39,898 nucleotides of DNA. Origin: Halorubrum persicum. Its GTDB lineage: Archaea > Halobacteriota > Halobacteria > Halobacteriales > Haloferacaceae. Of the stretch, positions 29,976 through 38,537 are shown piece by piece. A program made the translations under genes and the position numbers. Within the stretch, counting starts at the first letter, position 1. Each line of letters begins with the position of its first letter. The notes beneath the pieces were generated by a model. It saw nothing but the letters and a program-made list of their open reading frames with translations, did not search any database and was not told the DNA's origin. Location: contig NZ_NHOA01000012.1 of the NCBI RefSeq assembly GCF_002727125.1, forward strand, positions 1 through 39,898, read 5' to 3'.

Positions 29976-30866
29976 TCACTCCTCCAGGCTCGGGTGCGTC
30001 TCCTGCGGATCCGGGTGCGGCGCCGCGAACCGCTCCCGGACGACTTCGCGCGAGTCCGCCTCGCGCTCGCGTCGCTCGTCGTCGTCGATCTCCTCGCAGC
30101 CCGGCGGCACCTCCCGACCCCGGTCGCTGAAGTACCCCTCGGGCGCGACCCAGTCGTGGTAGAACCCCCGGTCGTCCGCCTCGAGGATCGTCACGCCGAC
30201 CTCGGCGCCGTGGCCCGCACACACCGCCGCCTGATGCGACTTCTCCGCGAGGCGGCCGGCCGCGTACAGCCCGTCGACGCCGGTCCGCCCGCGCTCGTCG
30301 GTGTCGACGTACGACTTCCCGCGGTCGAGGATCCCGACGCCCGCGACGTCCTCGAGGTAGCCGACCTCGTTTTTCGTCGCCGCGACGACGTACCGGGCTC
30401 GGATCGGATCGCCGGGAGCGTGGCCGTCGTTGCGGTTGCCCACGTCGTCGCCGTCGTCCGCGCCATCGTCGTCGACGTTGTCATGACCGTCCGCGTCGTC
30501 GTCGATCTCGACGACGAACCGGGCCGAGTCGGTGTCGTCGCCGTCGTCCGCTCCCTCGTCCCTGTCGGCCGCCGCGACCCGCGAGACCCGGGCGTCGACC
30601 CGATCGGCGCCGGCGTTCTCGGCCTGTTCGCCGAGGAGGTCGAGGAGCTGTCGGGCGTTGACGCCGAGCGGGAAGCCGGGGAAGTTCTCCAGATGTGCGT
30701 TCCGTCGGAGGATCGACTCCCCGGAGTCGACGACGAGCGTGTCGAGCCCCTGGCGGGCCGTGAACACGGCCGCCGAGAGCCCGGCGACGCCCCCGCCGAC
30801 GACGACGACGTCGCGGAGCGCGCGTGAGTCGCCCGCCGACTCTCCCGGCGTCTCGCTCCCGTTCAT
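29976..30866 (-). CDS. TrxR-like FAD protein 1 lacking the NAD(P)H domain
   Basis: A 296-aa flavoprotein. The FAD motif DVVVVGGGVAGLSAAVFTARQG is at residues 19-40, followed by ILRRNAHLENFPGFPLGVNARQL, as in thioredoxin reductase-like enzymes. The second FAD half, GVDGLYAAGRLAEKSHQAAVCAGHGAEV, is at 196-223. Between the halves, where thioredoxin reductase has its NAD(P)H domain with the CxxC, there is only a 50-residue Asp-rich linker. A 70-residue C-terminal extension (FYHDWVAPEGYFSDRG) follows. Its ATG overlaps the stop of a 51-aa ORF, and the operon is led by a ferric-siderophore-type binding protein. I infer a role in iron release or substrate reduction, with an electron donor other than NAD(P)H through this chain. 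Confidence 0.85.
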   Translation of the reverse strand: MNGSETPGESAGDSRALRDVVVVGGGVAGLSAAVFTARQGLDTLVVDSGESILRRNAHLENFPGFPLGVNARQLLDLLGEQAENAGADRVDARVSRVAAADRDEGADDGDDTDSARFVVEIDDDADGHDNVDDDGADDGDDVGNRNDGHAPGDPIRARYVVAATKNEVGYLEDVAGVGILDRGKSYVDTDERGRTGVDGLYAAGRLAEKSHQAAVCAGHGAEVGVTILEADDRGFYHDWVAPEGYFSDRGREVPPGCEEIDDDERREREADSREVVRERFAAPHPDPQETHPSLEE

Positions 30867-31018
30867 CGGTCGATCCCCCGTACGATCCGCGGATCGTCGC
30901 TGTCGATCGCCATACCGTCCGGCGCGGGGGAGCCGCCGTAGTCGCTTCGGTCCACGGGCGGAGCGCTCCCACTCGGTCTGACGACCCCGGTCGCGACCGT
31001 CGGCTCGCGAGCGCGCAT
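30863..31018 (-). CDS. 51-aa translationally coupled small ORF
   Basis: The binding-protein gene ends in TAG at 31019-31021 and the next base starts ATG (31018). This ORF codes for 51 residues: MRAREPTVATGVVRPSGSAP, then an acidic Asp/Gly-rich stretch and the end RIVRGIDR. Its TGA overlaps the ATG of FAD protein 1 by four bases. Coupling on both sides and the absence of any other use for the space favour a real gene. I recognise no family, cysteine or membrane segment. It could also serve only as a ribosome relay between the two large genes. Confidence 0.5.
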   Translation of the reverse strand: MRAREPTVATGVVRPSGSAPPVDRSDYGGSPAPDGMAIDSDDPRIVRGIDR

Positions 31019-32272
31019 CTACAGGGCCCCGTTGATCGCGTCCGCGACGCGCTGGCGGTCGAACAGCCGTTCGCCCTCCGGAATCTCCGGGTATGGTCCC
31101 GACTCGTACCGCGGCCACGAGCCGAACTCGTCGGGGTAGAGCTGTTTGGCGGTCATCTCGAGCTGGAAGAGGTTCAGGATCGGCCCCTGATAGCGTGCGC
31201 CCTGCGGGTGGATGCGGTCGTTCTGCACCGCGGTGACCTGCGAGCCGACCGGGTCCTCCTCGAAGGCGGCCCGCCGCCCGGCCATGTCCGTTCCCGGCTC
31301 CATGCCGCCGAGGTAGAGGATGACGTCGGGGTCGGCCTCGAGGATGGTCTCGAAGTCGACGACCGTCCCGGACTCGACGTCCCCCTCGAACGCGTCTCGC
31401 GGCCCGAGCGGCCGCGTGTGCGAGGTGAGGAAGCCGGGGTTGCTCAGCGTGTACGCGTAGATCTGCTCGATGTCGGCGGCGGCGATCATGATCGCGGTCG
31501 GACGCTCCGCCTCGGGCGGGAGCCGCTCGTCGATCGTGGCGAGCAGGTCCTCGCGGACCGCCGCGAGCGCCTCGTAGCGCTCGCGCTCTTGGAACGCCTC
31601 GGCGACGATCTCGAACTGCTCCCAGAGCCCGTAGTACCGGTAGCCGTCGGCCCACCCCTCGGCGGGCTCCTGATGACGGTCGCTGAGGGAGTTGCCGAAC
31701 CACGGCGAGACGTGCTCGCCGATCTCGTCGATGTCCTCGCGGTCCCACCCCTCCAGCTGCGTCACCCACGCCGGGTCCGCGAGGTGAACGTCGCTGTCGA
31801 GCTCGTACAGCTTCTCTTTGTCCGGCTCCCAGGAGGAGTAGAGCCCCGACCAGTCGAGCGTGACGCCGGGGAGCCGCTCGACGTACTGGTTCCAGAGCCC
31901 GTCGTAGTAGTCCGGCGCGTGCAGCGCCGTGACGCCGTCTCCCCGACCGAGCGCGAACGCCATGTCCGCGTGGTGGGTAAGCCGCGTGAACACCGTCTCC
32001 GGCGGCGACTCGAAGGTCACCTCGCCCACCGGCGAGATCGACGCCGCGTAGCTCCCGTCGGCGTCGTCCGCGGTCTGTGACTCCGCCGAGCCGTCGCCGG
32101 TCGAGCCGGTAGCCGTCGACTCGCTCCCGGTCGCGTCGGGAGCGGACGAGTCGGGGTCGGCGCCGTCGCCGCCGGTACAGCCGGCGAGGAGGCCGCCGAG
32201 CGCGACGGTGACGCCGTACTTGGTAAACGCTCTGCGGGTTGGTGCGCCGCGTCCCGCGTCGTCTCTGGCCAT
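31019..32272 (-). CDS. Iron-siderophore-type ABC substrate-binding lipoprotein 1
   Basis: A 417-aa exported binding protein. A Tat signal (TRRAFTKYGVTVALGGLLAGC) with lipobox anchors it to the outer membrane face; a Ser/Thr/Asp linker follows. The mature part is a FecB/BtuF-like two-lobed binding protein: SPVGEVTFESPPETVF, LYELDSDVHLADPAWV, ILEADPDVILYLGG and the end GPILNLFQLEMTAKQLYP. It is clearly paralogous to the gene at 35432-36712. The promoter carries an iron operator (32275-32292) directly before the ATG. It heads an operon with the small ORF, FAD protein 1 and the DUF7552-like gene, and presumably uses the permease and ATPase of the other operon. Confidence 0.92.
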   Translation of the reverse strand: MARDDAGRGAPTRRAFTKYGVTVALGGLLAGCTGGDGADPDSSAPDATGSESTATGSTGDGSAESQTADDADGSYAASISPVGEVTFESPPETVFTRLTHHADMAFALGRGDGVTALHAPDYYDGLWNQYVERLPGVTLDWSGLYSSWEPDKEKLYELDSDVHLADPAWVTQLEGWDREDIDEIGEHVSPWFGNSLSDRHQEPAEGWADGYRYYGLWEQFEIVAEAFQERERYEALAAVREDLLATIDERLPPEAERPTAIMIAAADIEQIYAYTLSNPGFLTSHTRPLGPRDAFEGDVESGTVVDFETILEADPDVILYLGGMEPGTDMAGRRAAFEEDPVGSQVTAVQNDRIHPQGARYQGPILNLFQLEMTAKQLYPDEFGSWPRYESGPYPEIPEGERLFDRQRVADAINGAL

Positions 32273-32274
32273 AT

Positions 32275-32302
32275 TTTTAGGCCAGCCTAAAACAATATAG
32301 TC
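32275..32302 (-). promoter_or_regulatory. Iron operator and TATA box of the SBP1 operon
   Basis: TTTTAGGCCAGCCTAAAA (32275-32292) is a TTTAGG-N4-CCTAAA palindrome beginning 3 nt before the start codon (32272). On the minus strand CTATATTG at 32294-32302 is the TATA box. The operator covers the start of a leaderless transcript, so a bound regulator should repress. Confidence 0.85.
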
Positions 32303-32352
32303 GTTCCGATCCGCCCCGTATCCCCGTCCCCGGCTGCGCCGCCGGACCCGAT

Positions 32353-33252
32353 TTACTCCTCGTGTCGGGCACGCAGCGGCGTGACGCGCGGCCCGTTCTC
32401 GGTCTGCACCACGTCGGCGTCGACGCGGAACACGTCCGCGAGCAGGTCCTCGGTGACGATCTCTTCGGGCGCGCCGCGGGCGCGGATCTCGCCGTCCTTG
32501 AGCGCGACCATCCGGTCGGCGAGCCGGGCGGCCTGCTCGATGTCGTGGAGGACGACGACGACGGTCACGTCGCTCTCGTCGCGCAGGGTTTCGATGATCT
32601 CCATCACCTCCATCTGGTGGTGCAGGTCGAGGAACGTCGTCGGCTCGTCCAACAGGAGCACGTCGGTGTCCTGCGCGAGCACCATCGCGATCCACGCCAG
32701 CTGTTTCTGTCCGCCGCTGAGGCTCCCGACCTCGCGGTCGCGCAGGTGACCGCAGCCGGCCAGCTCGATCGCCTCCTCGACCGCGACCACGTCCTCGTCG
32801 GTCGTCCGCTCGAAGAACCCGCGGTGCGGGTATCGACCGTGGTACACCAGGTCCTCGACCGTGATGCTGTTCGGCGAGCTGCTCTCCTGGGAGAGCAGGC
32901 CGAGCGTCCGGGCGAGCGCCTTCGTGTCCATCGCGTGCACGTCGCGCCCGTCGACCAGCACGGAGCCGTCCGCCGGCGCGAGCTGCGTCGCCAACCCCTT
33001 CAGCAGGGTGCTCTTCCCGGAGCCGTTCGGACCGACGAGCGCCGTGACCGCGCCGGGCTCGGCCGCGATCGACTCGCCGTCGATCACGGGCTCCGGGGCG
33101 TTCGGATACCCCAACACGAGGTCTTCGCCGTCGAGGTCGCTCGCGTCCGCCGCGGCGGGCTCGCCGTCGGCCGCCGAGCCGCCCGCAGCGTTCGATCCGT
33201 CCGGTCCGTCCGTCGCGTCCGTTCGCGTCGTGTCGACGTGTTCCGTTGACAT
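32353..33252 (-). CDS. ABC transporter ATPase, iron-complex (FecE) type
   Basis: A 299-aa ABC ATPase. After a 40-residue Ala/Asp-rich N-terminal extension come Walker A GPNGSGKSTLL, Q-loop LGLLSQESSSPN, signature LSGGQKQLAWIAMVLAQ, Walker B VLLLDEPTTFLDL and the switch His in VVLHDIEQAARLAD. This is the FecE/FepC/BtuD subgroup that energises uptake of iron complexes or cobalamin. Its ATG follows the permease TGA without spacer. It is the last gene of operon A; 80 bp with an iron operator separate it from the SBP1 gene. Confidence 0.95.
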   Translation of the reverse strand: MSTEHVDTTRTDATDGPDGSNAAGGSAADGEPAAADASDLDGEDLVLGYPNAPEPVIDGESIAAEPGAVTALVGPNGSGKSTLLKGLATQLAPADGSVLVDGRDVHAMDTKALARTLGLLSQESSSPNSITVEDLVYHGRYPHRGFFERTTDEDVVAVEEAIELAGCGHLRDREVGSLSGGQKQLAWIAMVLAQDTDVLLLDEPTTFLDLHHQMEVMEIIETLRDESDVTVVVVLHDIEQAARLADRMVALKDGEIRARGAPEEIVTEDLLADVFRVDADVVQTENGPRVTPLRARHEE

Positions 33253-34425
33253 TCAGAGCTCACCCATGTGCTGCTGTTTCCGCATCAGGTACAGGAAGTA
33301 CGGGCCGCCGATCAGCCCGGTGACGATACCGACCGGAACCTGCGCGTCGGCGCCCGTGAGCACGCCCATCCCGAGGCGCGCGCCCACGTCGGCCGCGACC
33401 ATCAGCGCGGGCCCGACGAAGAGGCAGCCGACGATCACCCGCTTGTAGTCGCTGCCGACGAGGTTCCGAACCATGTGGGGGACGATCAGTCCGACGAAGC
33501 TGACGATCCCCGCCACCGCGATGCTGGCCGCCGCCGCCAACACGGCGACGCCGGAGAGCGCGAACCGCACCTTCTCGATCGACATCCCCAGCGACTTCGC
33601 CGTCTGCTCGCCGAGGAGGAGGAGGTTCAGCTGCCGGGAGCCCGCGAGCGACAGCACCACCGCCACGGCCGTCCACGGCAGCGCCATCCGGACCTGCTCC
33701 CAGTCGGTCCCCGTCAGCGACCCCGTCGTCCACTGGATCGCCGACTGGACGACGCCGATGTCGTCCGCGAAGAAGAACAGTCCCGTCTGGAGGCTGTTGA
33801 AGACGGTCCCGACGATCACGCCCGCGAGCACGAGCCGGACCGGGCTCGTCCCGTTCTTCCACGCGATCGCGTAGACGATCAGGAACGCGACCGCGCCCCC
33901 GAGCGCCGCGATCAGCGGGAGGAACGCCGCGAGCCCGCCGAACATCACGAGCGTCAGCAGGATCATCAGCCCCGCGCCCGAGGAGACGCCGAGGATGAAC
34001 GGGCTGGCGAGCTCGTTCCTGGTGACCGCCTGGAAGATGGCCCCCGAGATGCCGAGGTTCATCCCGACGATGGCGGCGACGAACACCCGCGGGAGCCGGA
34101 TGTTCCAGACGATGAGCGTCCCGTGCGCCAGCTCCGGCAGCTCACCCTGGAAGCCGGTGATCGACCGCATCAGTCCCTCGCCGACGACGAACTGCAGCAG
34201 CCAGCGCGGGTCGAGGAGCACCGCGGGGTCGAGGGCGGCGCGCCACGCCTCGCCGACCGTCATCGAGTAGGCGCCGAAGCTCACCTGCACGAGCCCGCCG
34301 GCGACGACGACGGCGACGCTGGCGAGCGCCACCGCGGCCAGCTTCGGGTCGAACAGCCACCCCAGCCGTCCCCCGGACGCTCGGGGCGCGGCGCCCTCGC
34401 CGGCGACCGACCGCCCGCCGTTCAT
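33253..34425 (-). CDS. FecCD-family iron-complex permease
   Basis: A 390-aa multi-spanning permease of the BtuC/FecCD family (about ten helices), working as a homodimer with the following ATPase. Hallmarks: VWNIRLPRVFVAAIVGMNLGISGAIFQAVTRNELASPFILGVSSGAGL, TGSLTGTDWEQVRMALPW and VSFVGLIVPHMVRNLVGSDYKRVI. The start at 34425 overlaps the FAD protein 2 stop by four bases (ATGA), so the genes are translationally coupled; longer starts upstream fall in that gene. It is the only permease of the island. Confidence 0.94.
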   Translation of the reverse strand: MNGGRSVAGEGAAPRASGGRLGWLFDPKLAAVALASVAVVVAGGLVQVSFGAYSMTVGEAWRAALDPAVLLDPRWLLQFVVGEGLMRSITGFQGELPELAHGTLIVWNIRLPRVFVAAIVGMNLGISGAIFQAVTRNELASPFILGVSSGAGLMILLTLVMFGGLAAFLPLIAALGGAVAFLIVYAIAWKNGTSPVRLVLAGVIVGTVFNSLQTGLFFFADDIGVVQSAIQWTTGSLTGTDWEQVRMALPWTAVAVVLSLAGSRQLNLLLLGEQTAKSLGMSIEKVRFALSGVAVLAAAASIAVAGIVSFVGLIVPHMVRNLVGSDYKRVIVGCLFVGPALMVAADVGARLGMGVLTGADAQVPVGIVTGLIGGPYFLYLMRKQQHMGEL

Positions 34426-35435
34426 GGGGTCCCCTCGGCGTACGCGGCGATCGCGTCGTCGTCCATCGCGTCGAGCAGCGCCTCGGCGCCGTGAGCGTCG
34501 ACGACGGCGCCGGGATCGAGGTGGCCGGCGAGCGCGCGCCGCCCCTCGACCGCCCGCGACTCGGCCTCGTCGGCGTCGACGTACGCCGACAGCGCCTCGT
34601 CGATCACCGCCTCGCGGACCCGAGCGAACCGCTCCGAGTCCGCGTCGACCGGGGCGTCGGCGTGGCGCTCGTCGAACCATTCGACCCACCGATCGCGGTC
34701 GGCCCACTCGTCCTCGCGCTCCGCCTCGCGGCGCACCCAGTCGACCCCTTCGGCCGCCGCGGGCCACCAGCCGTCCGCGACCCGCGCGTCCGCGATCACC
34801 CGTTTGGCGACGCGGGCGCCGCGCCCGGCCGCCGTGATCGCCTGCCGGTCGGCCTCGGAGGGCGAGGCGACGTAGAGCCCGTCGACCGGCGTCGCCCCGT
34901 CGGGGTCGGCGTACTCCCGGTCGAAGTGTTCGTGGACCTCGCCGCCGTGGTCGTGGGTCTCGAACATCGCCGCGCCGTCGTCCAGCCCGCGGAGGTACTC
35001 GCCGTCGTACCGGGTCGCCGCCACCACGCGGCGGGCGGTGACCGGCCCTCCCTCCTGTGGGATGACGCGGAAGGGCGTTCCGTTCGCGTCGCTCCCCGAC
35101 CTCTCGACCGACTCGACGAGGTCGTCGACGAGCGTGCCGCCCGCACGGTCGACGTGGTCGTGCAGGAGGTCGTAAAATGTCTCGACGTCGATCCCGCCCG
35201 GGAAGCCGAGGTAGTTCCCCAGGTGCGCACAGCGCGCGATCGACGACCGACCGCGGTCGAAGACGGCGACCTCGATCCCCTCGCGAGCGAGGAAGACGGC
35301 GGCCGAGCAGCCGGCGGGGCCGCCGCCGACCACGACCGCGTCGTAGTCGGCCCCCTCGGCGGCTTCGTCGGCGGCGGTCTCCCCGGCTCCGGGGTCGGCG
35401 GGGTCACGCTCGTCGCGGTCCACCCCGTCGCTCAT
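34422..35435 (-). CDS. TrxR-like FAD protein 2 lacking the NAD(P)H domain
   Basis: A 337-aa paralogue of FAD protein 1. FAD motif AVVVGGGPAGCSAAVFLAREG at residues 33-53, then SSIARCAHLGNYLGFPGGIDVETF, the short strand VTARRVVAATRYDGEYLRG at 132-150, and the second half PVDGLYVASPSEADRQAITAAGRGARVA at 183-210. There is no NAD(P)H-binding domain and no CxxC. A 120-residue acidic helical C-terminal region (WWPAAAEGVDWVRREAERE) follows. It overlaps the SBP2 gene by four bases at one end and the permease by four at the other, in an iron-operator-controlled operon. I infer that it handles the imported substrate, for example reductive release of iron; its substrate and electron donor are unknown. 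Confidence 0.85.
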   Translation of the reverse strand: MSDGVDRDERDPADPGAGETAADEAAEGADYDAVVVGGGPAGCSAAVFLAREGIEVAVFDRGRSSIARCAHLGNYLGFPGGIDVETFYDLLHDHVDRAGGTLVDDLVESVERSGSDANGTPFRVIPQEGGPVTARRVVAATRYDGEYLRGLDDGAAMFETHDHGGEVHEHFDREYADPDGATPVDGLYVASPSEADRQAITAAGRGARVAKRVIADARVADGWWPAAAEGVDWVRREAEREDEWADRDRWVEWFDERHADAPVDADSERFARVREAVIDEALSAYVDADEAESRAVEGRRALAGHLDPGAVVDAHGAEALLDAMDDDAIAAYAEGTP

Positions 35436-36712
35436 GGCTGATCACCGGCGACGATCGCGGCGACCCGGTCGCGGTCGAAGAGCCGCTCGGCCTCCGGGAT
35501 CGCCGGATAGCCGTCGCCGAGCTCGTACGTCGGCCACTCGCCGAACCGCTCGGGGAACAGCTGTTTGGCGGTCATCTCGAGCTGGAAGAGGTTCATAATC
35601 GGCCCCTGCACCGGGTTCCCCGAGGGGTAGAACCGGTCGGCCCGGATCGCCGAGAGCTCACCGGCGACCGGGTGGTCGGCGAGCTCCTCGCGGATCGCGG
35701 CCACGTCGTAGTAGGACTCGACCCCGTACTGGTGTAAGATCACGTCGGGGTCGATCTCCAGGAGCCGTTCGTGGTCGTAGGCGGTCTCGTAGGTCACGTC
35801 GGCGGCGCCGAACGCGTCGGGCACGCCGAAAGGACGCACGTGGGCGGTGGCGAACCCCGGACCGTCGAGCCGCGAGGGGTAGTAGGTCCCGTCCATGTAG
35901 AGGAGCGTGGCGACCGTCGGTCGCTCCCCTTCCGGCGGGAGGTCCGCCTGTACCGTTTCGACCAGGTCGTCGTGAACCGACGCGAGCGCCTCGTAGCGCT
36001 CCGGCTCCTGAAACACGTCCGCGACGCGCTCCGCGATCTCCCAGAGGGTGTAGTGCTCGTAGTCGTCGCGGCACGGCTCCGGCGGCTCGGAGTTCCGGCG
36101 ACTGTACACGTTGCCGAACCACGGGCCGACGTTGTCGCGGATCTCCGCCACGTCGCCCTCGTCCCACCCGTCGAAGGAGACGAACAGACAGGGGTCAGCC
36201 AGATGGAGGTCGGCGTCGAGCTCGTAGAGCAGCTCCCGGTCGACCGTGATCCCGCCGCCGGACCCCGAGTTGAGCTGTCGGATCCCCTCCCGATCGAACT
36301 CGACGCCGTCGAGCGCGGCGTAGTAGGCGTCGAGGGTGTTCCCGCCGGCGTCGGCGTCGAAGCCGAGCGAGTTCACCGCGTCGCCGTGGCCGAACGCGAC
36401 CGCCATGTCCGCGTACAGGAGGCTGTAGACCATCACGTCCTCGGGGACCGCGTCGAGCGTCACCTCGCCGACCGGCGCCATCTCGACGGAGTACGCCGCC
36501 CGAGACCCGTCACCGGCGGCCGCCGCGTCGGAACCGTCTGCCCCGTCGGTCTCGGCGTCGTCCGAGCCGGCGGCGCCGTCGGAGCCCCCCGATCCGGAGC
36601 CGCCCGAACCGCCTCCGAGACAGCCCGCGAGCAGTCCCGCCCCCGCGACCGCACCGCCGAGCCTGATCGCGGTGCGGCGCGTCGAGGTGCTTCGGTTCTC
36701 GTGCGTTACCAT
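35432..36712 (-). CDS. Iron-siderophore-type ABC substrate-binding lipoprotein 2
   Basis: A 426-aa exported binding protein. The Tat signal RRTAIRLGGAVAGAGLLAGC and lipobox are followed by a Gly/Ser/Asp-rich linker of about 35 residues. The binding domain parallels SBP1: APVGEVTLDAVPEDVM, LYELDADLHLADPCLFVSFDGWDEGDVAEI, LLEIDPDVILHQYG and GPIMNLFQLEMTAKQLFPERFGEWP. SBP2 differs by an insert (LNSGSGGGITVDRE). It is first in operon A with FAD protein 2, permease and ATPase. The promoter has one iron operator right before the ATG and a second upstream of the TATA box. The ligand (a siderophore, haem or a cobalamin-like chelate) is not fixed, but the operators point to iron. Confidence 0.93.
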   Translation of the reverse strand: MVTHENRSTSTRRTAIRLGGAVAGAGLLAGCLGGGSGGSGSGGSDGAAGSDDAETDGADGSDAAAAGDGSRAAYSVEMAPVGEVTLDAVPEDVMVYSLLYADMAVAFGHGDAVNSLGFDADAGGNTLDAYYAALDGVEFDREGIRQLNSGSGGGITVDRELLYELDADLHLADPCLFVSFDGWDEGDVAEIRDNVGPWFGNVYSRRNSEPPEPCRDDYEHYTLWEIAERVADVFQEPERYEALASVHDDLVETVQADLPPEGERPTVATLLYMDGTYYPSRLDGPGFATAHVRPFGVPDAFGAADVTYETAYDHERLLEIDPDVILHQYGVESYYDVAAIREELADHPVAGELSAIRADRFYPSGNPVQGPIMNLFQLEMTAKQLFPERFGEWPTYELGDGYPAIPEAERLFDRDRVAAIVAGDQP

Positions 36713-36716
36713 ATGG

Positions 36717-36768
36717 TTTAGGCCTCCCTAAAGGATTAAATCGCTTTCGAATCTTAGGGGCACCTAAA
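36717..36768 (-). promoter_or_regulatory. Two iron operators flanking the SBP2 TATA box
   Basis: TTTAGG-CCTC-CCTAAA at 36717-36732, five nt before the ATG, and CTTAGG-GGCA-CCTAAA at 36753-36768. The TATA-like GATTTAATC (36734-36742) lies between them. Centres are 36 bp apart. It is the only promoter of the group with two copies. Confidence 0.8.
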
Positions 36769-36894
36769 TCCGAGAGATCGGCGAGGACGCGCCCCTACCA
36801 CGGGGAGATCGCGACCGGTCGGAGAAATAAACATAATCTGATACATTCGGAGGGTACTGCGCTATTACTCTCGCTTACCGGCGTACGCGTGGGT

Positions 36895-36910
36895 TTTAGG
36901 TCGTGCGAAA
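36895..36910 (+). promoter_or_regulatory. Degenerate iron box upstream of the dpsA TATA box
   Basis: TTTAGG-TCGT-GCGAAA: the left arm is perfect, the right arm keeps four of six bases of CCTAAA. It ends 20 nt upstream of the dpsA TATA box (36931-36938), the position of an activator rather than a repressor. Confidence 0.5.
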
Positions 36911-36965
36911 AAGTGTTTTAGTATTGATAAGTTATAAGTGGGTAGCGGGTGTATCGGATATCGTT

Positions 36966-37511
36966 ATGAACACACAGAAGGAGACTCGGCAGCGCGCCGG
37001 CACCGTCGAAGAGAACGCCCTGCGGCTCGAACCGGAGAAGGCGGAGCAGATCGTCGAGGCGCTGAACGTCGACCTCGCGGACGCGTACGTCCTCTATCAC
37101 CAGCTCCACAAACACCACTGGAACGTCGAAGGCGCGGAGTTCCTCGACGTCCACGTGTTCCTCCAAGAGGTGTACGAGGACGTCGAGGCGGCCGCCGACG
37201 AGCTCGCCGAACGGCTGCAAGCGCTCGGCGGCGTGCCGCACGCCGGCATGACGACGCTCGCGGAGAACGCCACCGTCGAGCCGGAAGACGAGGACGTGTA
37301 CGACATCCGCAGCTCGCTCGCGAACGATCTGGAGATGATGGGCGACATCATCGAGAGCTACCGGCAACACATCGAGCTGGCGGAGGGACTCGGCGACTAC
37401 ACGACCGCGGAGATGCTCCGCGATCAGCTGGAAGCGATCGAGGAGCACGCGCACCACATCGAGCACTACCTCGAAGACGACACGCTCGTCGTGGACTCCG
37501 CGACGAACTAA
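36966..37511 (+). CDS. dpsA: DpsA, iron-storing Dps-like ferritin
   Basis: A 181-aa dodecamer-forming ferritin that oxidises and stores iron and guards DNA against iron-driven oxidants. The ferroxidase region reads YHQLHKHHWNVEGAEFLDVHVFLQEVYEDVEAAADELAERL with the His, Asp and Glu ligands of Dps. Later helices LANDLEMMGDIIESYRQHIELA and LEAIEEHAHHIEHYLED carry extra His clusters. The start at 36966, MNTQKETRQRAG, is the known DpsA start; TATA GTTATAAG lies about 30 nt before it. It is divergent from the SBP2 gene across 253 bp containing iron boxes. Dps is expected to be up when iron is plentiful. Confidence 0.95.
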   Translation: MNTQKETRQRAGTVEENALRLEPEKAEQIVEALNVDLADAYVLYHQLHKHHWNVEGAEFLDVHVFLQEVYEDVEAAADELAERLQALGGVPHAGMTTLAENATVEPEDEDVYDIRSSLANDLEMMGDIIESYRQHIELAEGLGDYTTAEMLRDQLEAIEEHAHHIEHYLEDDTLVVDSATN

Positions 37512-37533
37512 CCGGTCGAAAACGGATCGCGGC

Positions 37534-37848
37534 TCAGCGAACGTCCGGTGCCGTCTGGTCGGTTCGGCCCGGCAGTTCGAGCTCGATCTCCAGTCCCGGT
37601 TCGCCGACCCCCTCGAAGTCGATCTCGAACTCCACGGGCTCGCCGAACGCGAACGGGAGTTCCCACTCGTCCGTCTCGATCCGAAGGTCGTCGCCGTCGC
37701 GGAGCTGTTCGCCGAGCGCGACCAGAAACTCGCCGGCCTCGCTCGCGTCGAGGCGATACTCTTGTTCGAAGTTCCGTCCCGCAATGACTGTTCGCTCCCC
37801 GTCCGCCGTCGACGAGTCCATCTCGTCCGGAGTGGATTCGTCCGTCAT
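37534..37848 (-). CDS. Amphi-Trp domain protein
   Basis: A 104-aa acidic protein with the amphi-Trp domain: TVIAGRNFEQEYRLDASEAGEFLVALGEQLRDGDDLRIETDEWELPFAFGEPVEFEIDFE. The domain is named for alternating amphipathic strands and a conserved Trp; its function is not known. No signal or membrane segment. The ATG at 37848 follows the TGA of the 55-aa gene after one base, and both come under the iron operator at 38025-38042. It is convergent with dpsA, 22 bp apart. Confidence 0.88.
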   Translation of the reverse strand: MTDESTPDEMDSSTADGERTVIAGRNFEQEYRLDASEAGEFLVALGEQLRDGDDLRIETDEWELPFAFGEPVEFEIDFEGVGEPGLEIELELPGRTDQTAPDVR

Positions 37849-37849
37849 C

Positions 37850-38017
37850 TCACTGCGTCACGTCGACGACGTGGTCGCTCGCGATCCACCCGTCCGTGTT
37901 GTCCGACTCCATGAACACGGACCGACCGGGACACCCTTCACAGACGGTGACGGACGGGGTTTGATCCGGCTCTGGTTCGCGACGAGATTCGGTGCGAGAC
38001 TGGGCGCCTGCTGACAT
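37850..38017 (-). CDS. 55-aa CxxC protein, iron-operator controlled
   Basis: A small protein just below usual gene-finder length. The first 20 residues are charged and disordered; the rest is PSVTVCEGCPGRSVFMESDN followed by TDGWIASDHVVDVTQ, with one Cys-x2-Cys pair and a Trp. Similar short proteins with CPGR-VF and DGWIASD are, as I recall, recurrent in haloarchaea and of unknown role. It is well supported: ATG at 38017 lies 8 nt from a clear iron operator, and the next gene starts one base after its stop. The CxxC could bind iron or zinc, alone or as a dimer. Confidence 0.78.
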   Translation of the reverse strand: MSAGAQSRTESRREPEPDQTPSVTVCEGCPGRSVFMESDNTDGWIASDHVVDVTQ

Positions 38018-38024
38018 TGCGCTT

Positions 38025-38052
38025 CTTTAGGCAGACCTAAAATAAAAAGGAC
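38025..38052 (-). promoter_or_regulatory. Iron operator and T-rich TATA box of the CxxC/amphi-Trp operon
   Basis: CTTTAGGCAGACCTAAAA (38025-38042) contains TTTAGG-CAGA-CCTAAA and begins 8 nt before the ATG at 38017. The minus strand reads CCTTTTTATTTTA just upstream (38041-38053), which serves as TATA box and possibly as U-tract terminator of the dtxR-like gene, whose stop is at 38068. Confidence 0.85.
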
Positions 38053-38067
38053 ACGGTCGGCGCCGCG

Positions 38068-38508
38068 TCACTCCGCACGCGTCGGCGAGACATCGAGATC
38101 GTCGGGACGGCTCTCGGCGTCGACGTCGAGGCCTTCGAACAGCACGTGGGCGAGCCGTTCGGCGACCGTGGGGCTGACCAGTCCGGCCATCTCCATCGCC
38201 TCGCGCTCGTACGCGTCGAGATCGAGCACGTCGCGGAAGAACCACGACAGGACGACGTACGTCTCGTGGAGCGCCTCCGCGCGGTCTCGACCGGCGTCGG
38301 TGAGCGTCGCCCCCTCGTACGGCTCACGGGCGACGAGCCCGTCGGCCGCGAGTCGTTGGAGCATCTCCGTCGTCGCCGCCGGAGAGCGGTCGAGCATCTC
38401 GGCGATCCGCCCGGGCCGGATCGGCGGCGACGACCGGTGTTCCGCGATGTACAGCGCGAGGAAGTACCGGGCCGTCCGCGTGGACCCCGGCTCGCCGACG
38501 TGCGCCAT
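38068..38508 (-). CDS. DtxR-family (Idr/SirR-like) iron regulator with altered metal ligands
   Basis: A 146-aa DtxR-type regulator: winged helix RTARYFLALYIAEHRSSPPIRPGRIAEMLDRSPAATTEMLQRLAADGLV, then the dimerisation helix region EALHETYVVLSWFFRDVLDLDAYEREAMEMAGLVSPTVAERLAHVLFEGL. The C-terminal SH3-like domain is absent. Aligned by eye with DtxR, the metal ligands Met10, His79, Glu83, His98, Cys102, Glu105 and His106 become Arg14, Tyr84, Ser88, Glu101, Met105, Ala108 and Gly109. It is autoregulated, since a perfect 18-bp palindrome sits 2 nt before its ATG. By its operator it should control both ABC operons and the CxxC/amphi-Trp operon. How it senses iron, if it does, is unclear. Confidence 0.9.
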   Translation of the reverse strand: MAHVGEPGSTRTARYFLALYIAEHRSSPPIRPGRIAEMLDRSPAATTEMLQRLAADGLVAREPYEGATLTDAGRDRAEALHETYVVLSWFFRDVLDLDAYEREAMEMAGLVSPTVAERLAHVLFEGLDVDAESRPDDLDVSPTRAE

Positions 38509-38510
38509 GC

Positions 38511-38537
38511 TTTTAGGCTAGCCTAAAATTATAAATC
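38511..38537 (-). promoter_or_regulatory. Perfect iron operator and TATA box of the dtxR-like gene
   Basis: TTTTAGGCTAGCCTAAAA (38511-38528) is a perfect 18-bp palindrome, the best copy of the motif in the window, starting 2 nt before the ATG. The TATA box ATTTATAAT (minus strand, 38529-38537) abuts it. The position predicts negative autoregulation. Confidence 0.88.

Follow-up and report, generated by a model that had tools for sequence, protein, structure and literature searches.

DtxR proteins are the textbook example of a repressor that is switched on by the metal it binds, and in DtxR itself the ligands are M10, C102, E105 and H106 at the primary site and H79, E83 and H98 at the ancillary site. 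Among the described relatives, the primary site of DtxR and IdeR includes M10, C102 and E105, the ancillary site includes H79 together with two residues of the SH3-like domain, and Fe(II) is favoured by sulfur ligands; MntR carries Asp or Asn and Glu at the places of DtxR M10 and C102 (PMC10317159). Halobacterium salinarum has four DtxR proteins, which form the Idr1, Idr2, SirR and TroR network (PMC6978704; for the Idr network see also PMC5287237). The literature covered by our search contained nothing on ligand loss in H. salinarum Idr1 and Idr2, and a search for metal-independent DtxR members found nothing useful.

We analyzed a regulator gene in a stretch of 39,898 nucleotides of Halorubrum persicum DNA (contig NZ_NHOA01000012.1, positions 1 to 39,898; the window), which an earlier note, made from the sequence alone, had described as a DtxR-family member without the canonical metal ligands. 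The features of this locus, in window coordinates, are as follows.

38068..38508, minus: ligand-less DtxR-fold regulator of 146 aa; complete ORF, ATG at 38508-38506, stop at 38068
38529..38535, minus: TATA element TTTATAA, -27 to -21 from the ATG; putative leaderless-type promoter
38511..38528, no strand: perfect 18-bp palindromic iron box TTTTAGGCTAGCCTAAAA, -20 to -3 from the ATG, between TATA and ATG
38350..38388, minus: recognition helix region, residues 41-53; S42, A44 and E48 as in the Cys-tailed paralog
38242..38259, minus: residues 84-89; Y84 and S88, clade-invariant, align with DtxR H79 and E83
38179..38208, minus: residues 101-110; E101, M105, A108 and G109 align with DtxR H98, C102, E105 and H106
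38027..38040, no strand: iron box ahead of the DUF7331-like ORF and the amphi-Trp-like gene
37850..38017, minus: 55-aa ORF with CxxC, DUF7331-like (26.6 bits against a cut-off of 27)
37534..37848, minus: small acidic protein, presumably amphi-Trp-like; no Pfam match; neighbor in 20 ortholog loci
36966..37511, plus: Dps/ferritin-like protein; neighbor in 24 loci, with PF00210 on an ortholog; start set at ATG 36966, longest ORF from 36903
36718..36767, no strand: pair of iron boxes, spaced exactly 36 bp, on either side of BRE/TATA-like elements, ahead of the substrate-binding-protein gene
35432..36712, minus: ABC transporter substrate-binding lipoprotein, Peripla_BP_2-like (below cut-off)
34422..35435, minus: FAD-dependent oxidoreductase
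32277..32290, no strand: iron box ahead of a second substrate-binding-protein gene

Profile matches and a predicted structure together show that the regulator descends from the DtxR/MntR family, as the earlier note had proposed, and has its two-domain fold. PF01325 scores 41.7 bits on the protein (cut-off 26) and is matched by 36/36 of its orthologs, and PF02742, the metal-binding and dimerization domain, scores 21.7 bits, under its cut-off of 27, and is matched by 33/36 orthologs at E<0.01. The MarR profile PF01047 reaches 28.6 bits over the HTH core (residues 26-63) only, lower than PF01325, and among proteins of solved structure the closest in sequence are DtxR, IdeR and MntR-like proteins. 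An AlphaFold2 model fed with 36 own-locus orthologs reaches a pLDDT of ~93 for the winged helix, drops to ~80 for the dimer domain and has low confidence at residues 128-146; it places helices at residues 10-25, 32-39, 43-55, 71-94, 101-108 and 113-129 and contains no SH3 domain. MntR and DtxR entries are its top fold matches in Foldseek and VIA-align, the best being MntR (Z 15.1, 124 residues, rmsd 2.6), with DtxR at Z 14.7.

Reading the ligand columns from an alignment of 149 sequences, in DtxR numbering, recovered every one of the seven substitutions previously listed by eye (M10 to R14, H79 to Y84, E83 to S88, H98 to E101, C102 to M105, E105 to A108 and H106 to G109). The primary site accordingly reads R, M, A and G, and the ancillary site has Y, S and E at columns 79, 83 and 98 in 52/52 of the distinct haloarchaeal clade members in our ortholog sets (one from H. 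salinarum), the two SH3 ligands being absent with their domain. Nor is the manganese site of MntR (D8, E11, H77, E99, E102, H103) present, since the corresponding columns hold R/Q/E, L, Y, M, A and G; the extra ligand Glu11, at DtxR position 13, is Leu17 in every clade member. Met is found at 102 in 49/52 members, Ala at 105 in 50/52 and Gly at 106 in 47/52, and over the 52 members column entropy is 0 at Y84, S88 and E101 and 0.27-0.60 bits at M105, A108 and G109. Among the seven columns only position 10 varies freely (Q/R/E/L/D/H), so that the change of Met10 to Arg holds for this regulator but not as a fixed feature of its clade. A C-terminal CxxC...C tail is found in none of the members, which rules out a replacement site of the kind seen in the sister clade; 35/52 have no Cys at all, and a single His column exceeds 90%.

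Because the replaced columns are conserved across the 52 clade members, the alignment indicates that the ligand loss is old, common to the clade and under selection, and on the same columns the regulator falls outside the metal-activated DtxR/IdeR class. The freezing of these columns, together with the near-absence of Cys and His, speaks against ordinary iron binding. The loss extends beyond the single protein first noted: it is clade-wide, and the sister groups of paralogs also lack part of the site. The ligand-less orthologs form one clade (SH-aLRT 100) whose sister is the Cys-tailed Idr type (SH-aLRT 92), and a third short group, labeled GHPC, joins at SH-aLRT 87; because the tree is built on few columns and includes some long branches, its deeper joins are provisional. 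The whole metal site is kept only in the SH3-bearing paralog (D10, H79, E83, E105 and H106 in 47/47, H98 in 46/47) and in three deep Cys-tailed sequences (loci L105, L109 and L144), which have M10, H79, E83, H98, C102, E105 and H106 along with the Cys tail. The Cys-tailed Idr type retains E83 and E105, and the ligand-less clade retains no ligand. Since these three sequences combine full ligands with a Cys tail, a state that is likely ancestral, the comparison suggests that the ancestor of the short haloarchaeal forms had the metal site, which was then lost stepwise. Members of the GHPC group (L101, L136, L141, L145, L147, L152, L155, L162, L166, L168 and L190) also lack the canonical ligands, with Gly at 105 in 10/11 and an HPCxGxC tail in many.

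Close orthologs occur in ~85/293 sampled genomes of the order, and a scan of named genomes gave 56 ortholog loci, in Halorubrum, Haloarcula, Haloferax, Halobellus, Natrinema, Halovenus, H. salinarum and others. The H. persicum cell has two further DtxR proteins, one with a complete metal site. In H. salinarum DSM 3754, four proteins exceed the PF01325 cut-off (L098-L101), one per main subgroup; its ortholog of the regulator (L094/L100; 54% identity) adjoins dms-type genes and presumably corresponds to VNG0835G, one of the Idr genes. The plasmids of H. salinarum NRC-1/R1 gave no ortholog match, and in these strains the gene, if present, is probably chromosomal.

The iron-gene setting that the earlier note saw around the regulator was borne out, with Dps, a siderophore-type ABC transporter and a flavoprotein beside the gene. 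The island runs from the regulator through the small CxxC protein, the amphi-Trp-like protein, Dps, the substrate-binding protein and the flavoprotein to the permease and ATPase, and the small CxxC ORF (37850-38017, minus) has an iron box of its own (38027-38040). Across the ortholog loci the neighbors are Dps (24), siderophore-type substrate-binding proteins (23), ABC ATPase (23), amphi-Trp-like protein (20), FAD oxidoreductase (19), DUF7551/7552 (18), NifU-like protein (15) and DUF7260 (13). Two FAD-oxidoreductase-like genes (29976-31769 and 34422-35435, both minus) adjoin the two substrate-binding proteins of the island and could be siderophore-reduction partners. In nine loci (L069, L071, L079, L080, L083, L085, L086, L089 and L093) the ortholog immediately follows a DUF7260 gene, in many of them together with DUF7551/7552, and several have boxes upstream; these DUF proteins belong to the same iron operons.

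The box at the regulator gene, TTTTAGGCTAGCCTAAAA, is the best of five perfect copies of TTAGGNNNNCCTAA in the window, in agreement with the initial reading. The 3.58-Mb genome contains 14 copies of the pattern TTAGGNNNNCCTAA (reversed-pattern control, 3), five of these copies lie within 32277-38526, and shuffles of the window never attained its count. Over 57 loci (1.13 Mb of ortholog loci) there are 153 such boxes against 0-1 for each of eight control patterns, which rules out chance palindromes, and TTTAGGNNNNCCTAAA has copies in 52/52 Halorubrum genomes, with zero for the reversed control. This distribution identifies TTAGGNNNNCCTAA as the mark of a genuine, small regulon. Boxes are densest around the gene, at 63 per 100 kb inside a distance of 1 kb, and thin out to 0-3 per 100 kb beyond 7 kb. 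A box in the regulator's own promoter is kept at the same place (-18/-19) in seven other Halorubrum orthologs, and a perfect box within 140 bp upstream is found in 18/52 clade members against 0/92 other DtxR paralogs (0/46 SH3-type, 0/30 Cys-tailed, 0/11 GHPC, 0/3 deep Cys-tailed and 0/2 others). When 600 bp of upstream sequence are considered, roughly half of the orthologs still lack a perfect box, some of them standing in operons with a promoter farther upstream. The regulon is also present in at least nine Halorubrum genomes without a detected close ortholog, so another protein must read the box there, and the regulator is ruled out as its sole reader. Close pairs of boxes (<120 bp) are spaced exactly 36 bp apart in 36/41 cases, with a BRE-like CGAAA element and a TATA-like TTTAAT element between them (for example 36718-36767; L042-L093); such 36-bp pairs are putatively a double operator around the core promoter.

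Comparison with the known systems places the regulator closest to the Cys-tailed Idr type (own paralog L002; H. salinarum L098), which is likewise short and without SH3, belongs to the sister clade and also lacks H79 (Tyr), H98, C102 and H106, but which differs in keeping E83 and E105 and the C-terminal tail, and whose genes carry no perfect box within 140 bp upstream. With DtxR and IdeR the regulator shares the two-domain fold, the winged helix, a predicted palindromic operator and the iron-regulon context, but it has none of their primary and ancillary ligands and no SH3 domain. MntR (Bacillus; DR2539 of Deinococcus), its best structural match, is similarly without SH3, although none of the MntR ligands has an equivalent in the regulator. 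The recognition helix has S42, P43, A44 and E48 as in the Cys-tailed paralog, in contrast to T37/P39/S43 of the SH3 group, and since these residues match in the two short proteins and differ in the SH3 type, both short proteins probably read the same box.

Three readings had been left open at the outset, namely that the regulator binds iron in another way, senses something else, or relies on other DtxR-type proteins of the cell. Our evidence leans toward the last, because the cell contains a complete-site paralog, because the box regulon exists without the gene and because the recognition helix is shared. We therefore favor, by a narrow preference over its being wrong, the reading that this haloarchaeal DtxR paralog has given up metal sensing and acts as a second-tier, box-binding partner that takes its iron response from a sensing paralog; with the metal site and conserved Cys absent and one His strongly conserved, a non-sensing second tier is the simplest account. 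When iron is plentiful, another DtxR protein on the box, of the Cys-tailed Idr type, the metal-site-bearing SH3 type or both, would keep the regulator gene off. As iron falls, the regulator would be made, and its product, free of metal, would bind the same box family either alongside the sensing paralog or jointly with it. In this feedback or co-regulatory role it would adjust the expression of Dps and of iron uptake. The regulator would then owe its response to iron to its partner and to its own synthesis rather than to a metal that it binds itself. Binding of the regulator to the iron box, the identity of the protein that represses its gene, the metal-free mode of binding and the choice between repressing, activating and partnering are all inferred here. 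Idr regulators reportedly show iron-modulated binding in vivo; should the H. salinarum ortholog belong to them, such binding would require either a partner or a sensor of another kind within the protein itself.

A sensor of another kind could lie in a remodeled pocket at or near the old ancillary site, where H81, on the same helix and three residues ahead of the position of DtxR H79, stands with Y84, S88 and E101. These four polar residues are fixed despite the loss of their DtxR function (HYSE in 49/52 members and YYSE in 3/52), which suggests that they are used, perhaps to bind another metal, an ion or a small molecule such as an intact iron complex. We regard this as unlikely but worth serious attention: only one His is strongly conserved and no Cys, Ala and Gly occupy the primary site, H81 is replaced by Tyr in three members, and an internal hydrogen-bond network would yield equal conservation. 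A constitutive repressor of the iron regulon, active in the apo form and free of any partner, would need just what is kept here (the fold, the dimer domain and the recognition helix, with the site removed). Such a protein, however, would be made under iron starvation and would shut off uptake when it is needed, unless it exerted weak feedback, and the paralog network indicates shared control rather than a lone repressor, so that this explanation appears improbable.

Two simpler explanations would make the ligand loss either an artifact or an accident, and both are very poorly favored. Compared with DtxR, the regulator has a deletion of two residues and an insertion of one, which allow some shift in the alignment, yet the structure-based alignment that had been proposed as a check on the ligands gave the same register (model residues 8-123 on DtxR 4-120 and 8-131 on MntR 2-125). 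The agreement of its ends with the sequence register supports the ligand columns; the canonical ligands were not restored, and no Glu-His pair that could supply E105/H106 lies nearby. Misalignment that hides the ligands, already a slim prospect, is thus ruled out by the 149-sequence alignment and the structural register. Slimmer still is the prospect of a decaying gene whose ligands drifted away, which would fit the patchy distribution of close orthologs in the order, but the changed columns are among the most conserved of the clade and intact orthologs occur in many genera; these two findings rule out drift or a pseudogene.

The second-tier reading can be widened, more tentatively and with rather less than even confidence, into a split system in which a metal-sensing DtxR paralog and a co-evolved site-less paralog work on shared operators, often two boxes 36 bp apart. 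The site-less protein, itself under iron-box control, would be either a non-sensing or heteromeric partner or a sensor acting through the rebuilt H81-Y84-S88-E101 pocket.

The clade described here is widespread and conserved, and it has lost the metal site of its family but retains the fold, the setting in the iron regulon and, probably, the DNA specificity. It raises the testable question of how a metalloregulator network uses a member unable to hold metal, bears on why haloarchaea maintain several DtxR paralogs, and advises caution toward "metal-dependent" names given from homology alone, such as the one used in plasmid records. Matching the four H. salinarum proteins L098-L101 to Idr1, Idr2, SirR and TroR would anchor the whole family. 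Elsewhere in the H. persicum genome, on its contig C12 (82500-95500; L209), five iron boxes lie within 10 kb, ~9 kb from the Cys-tailed paralog, where they adjoin glycosyltransferase-like and membrane-protein genes that could form an iron-controlled surface cluster.
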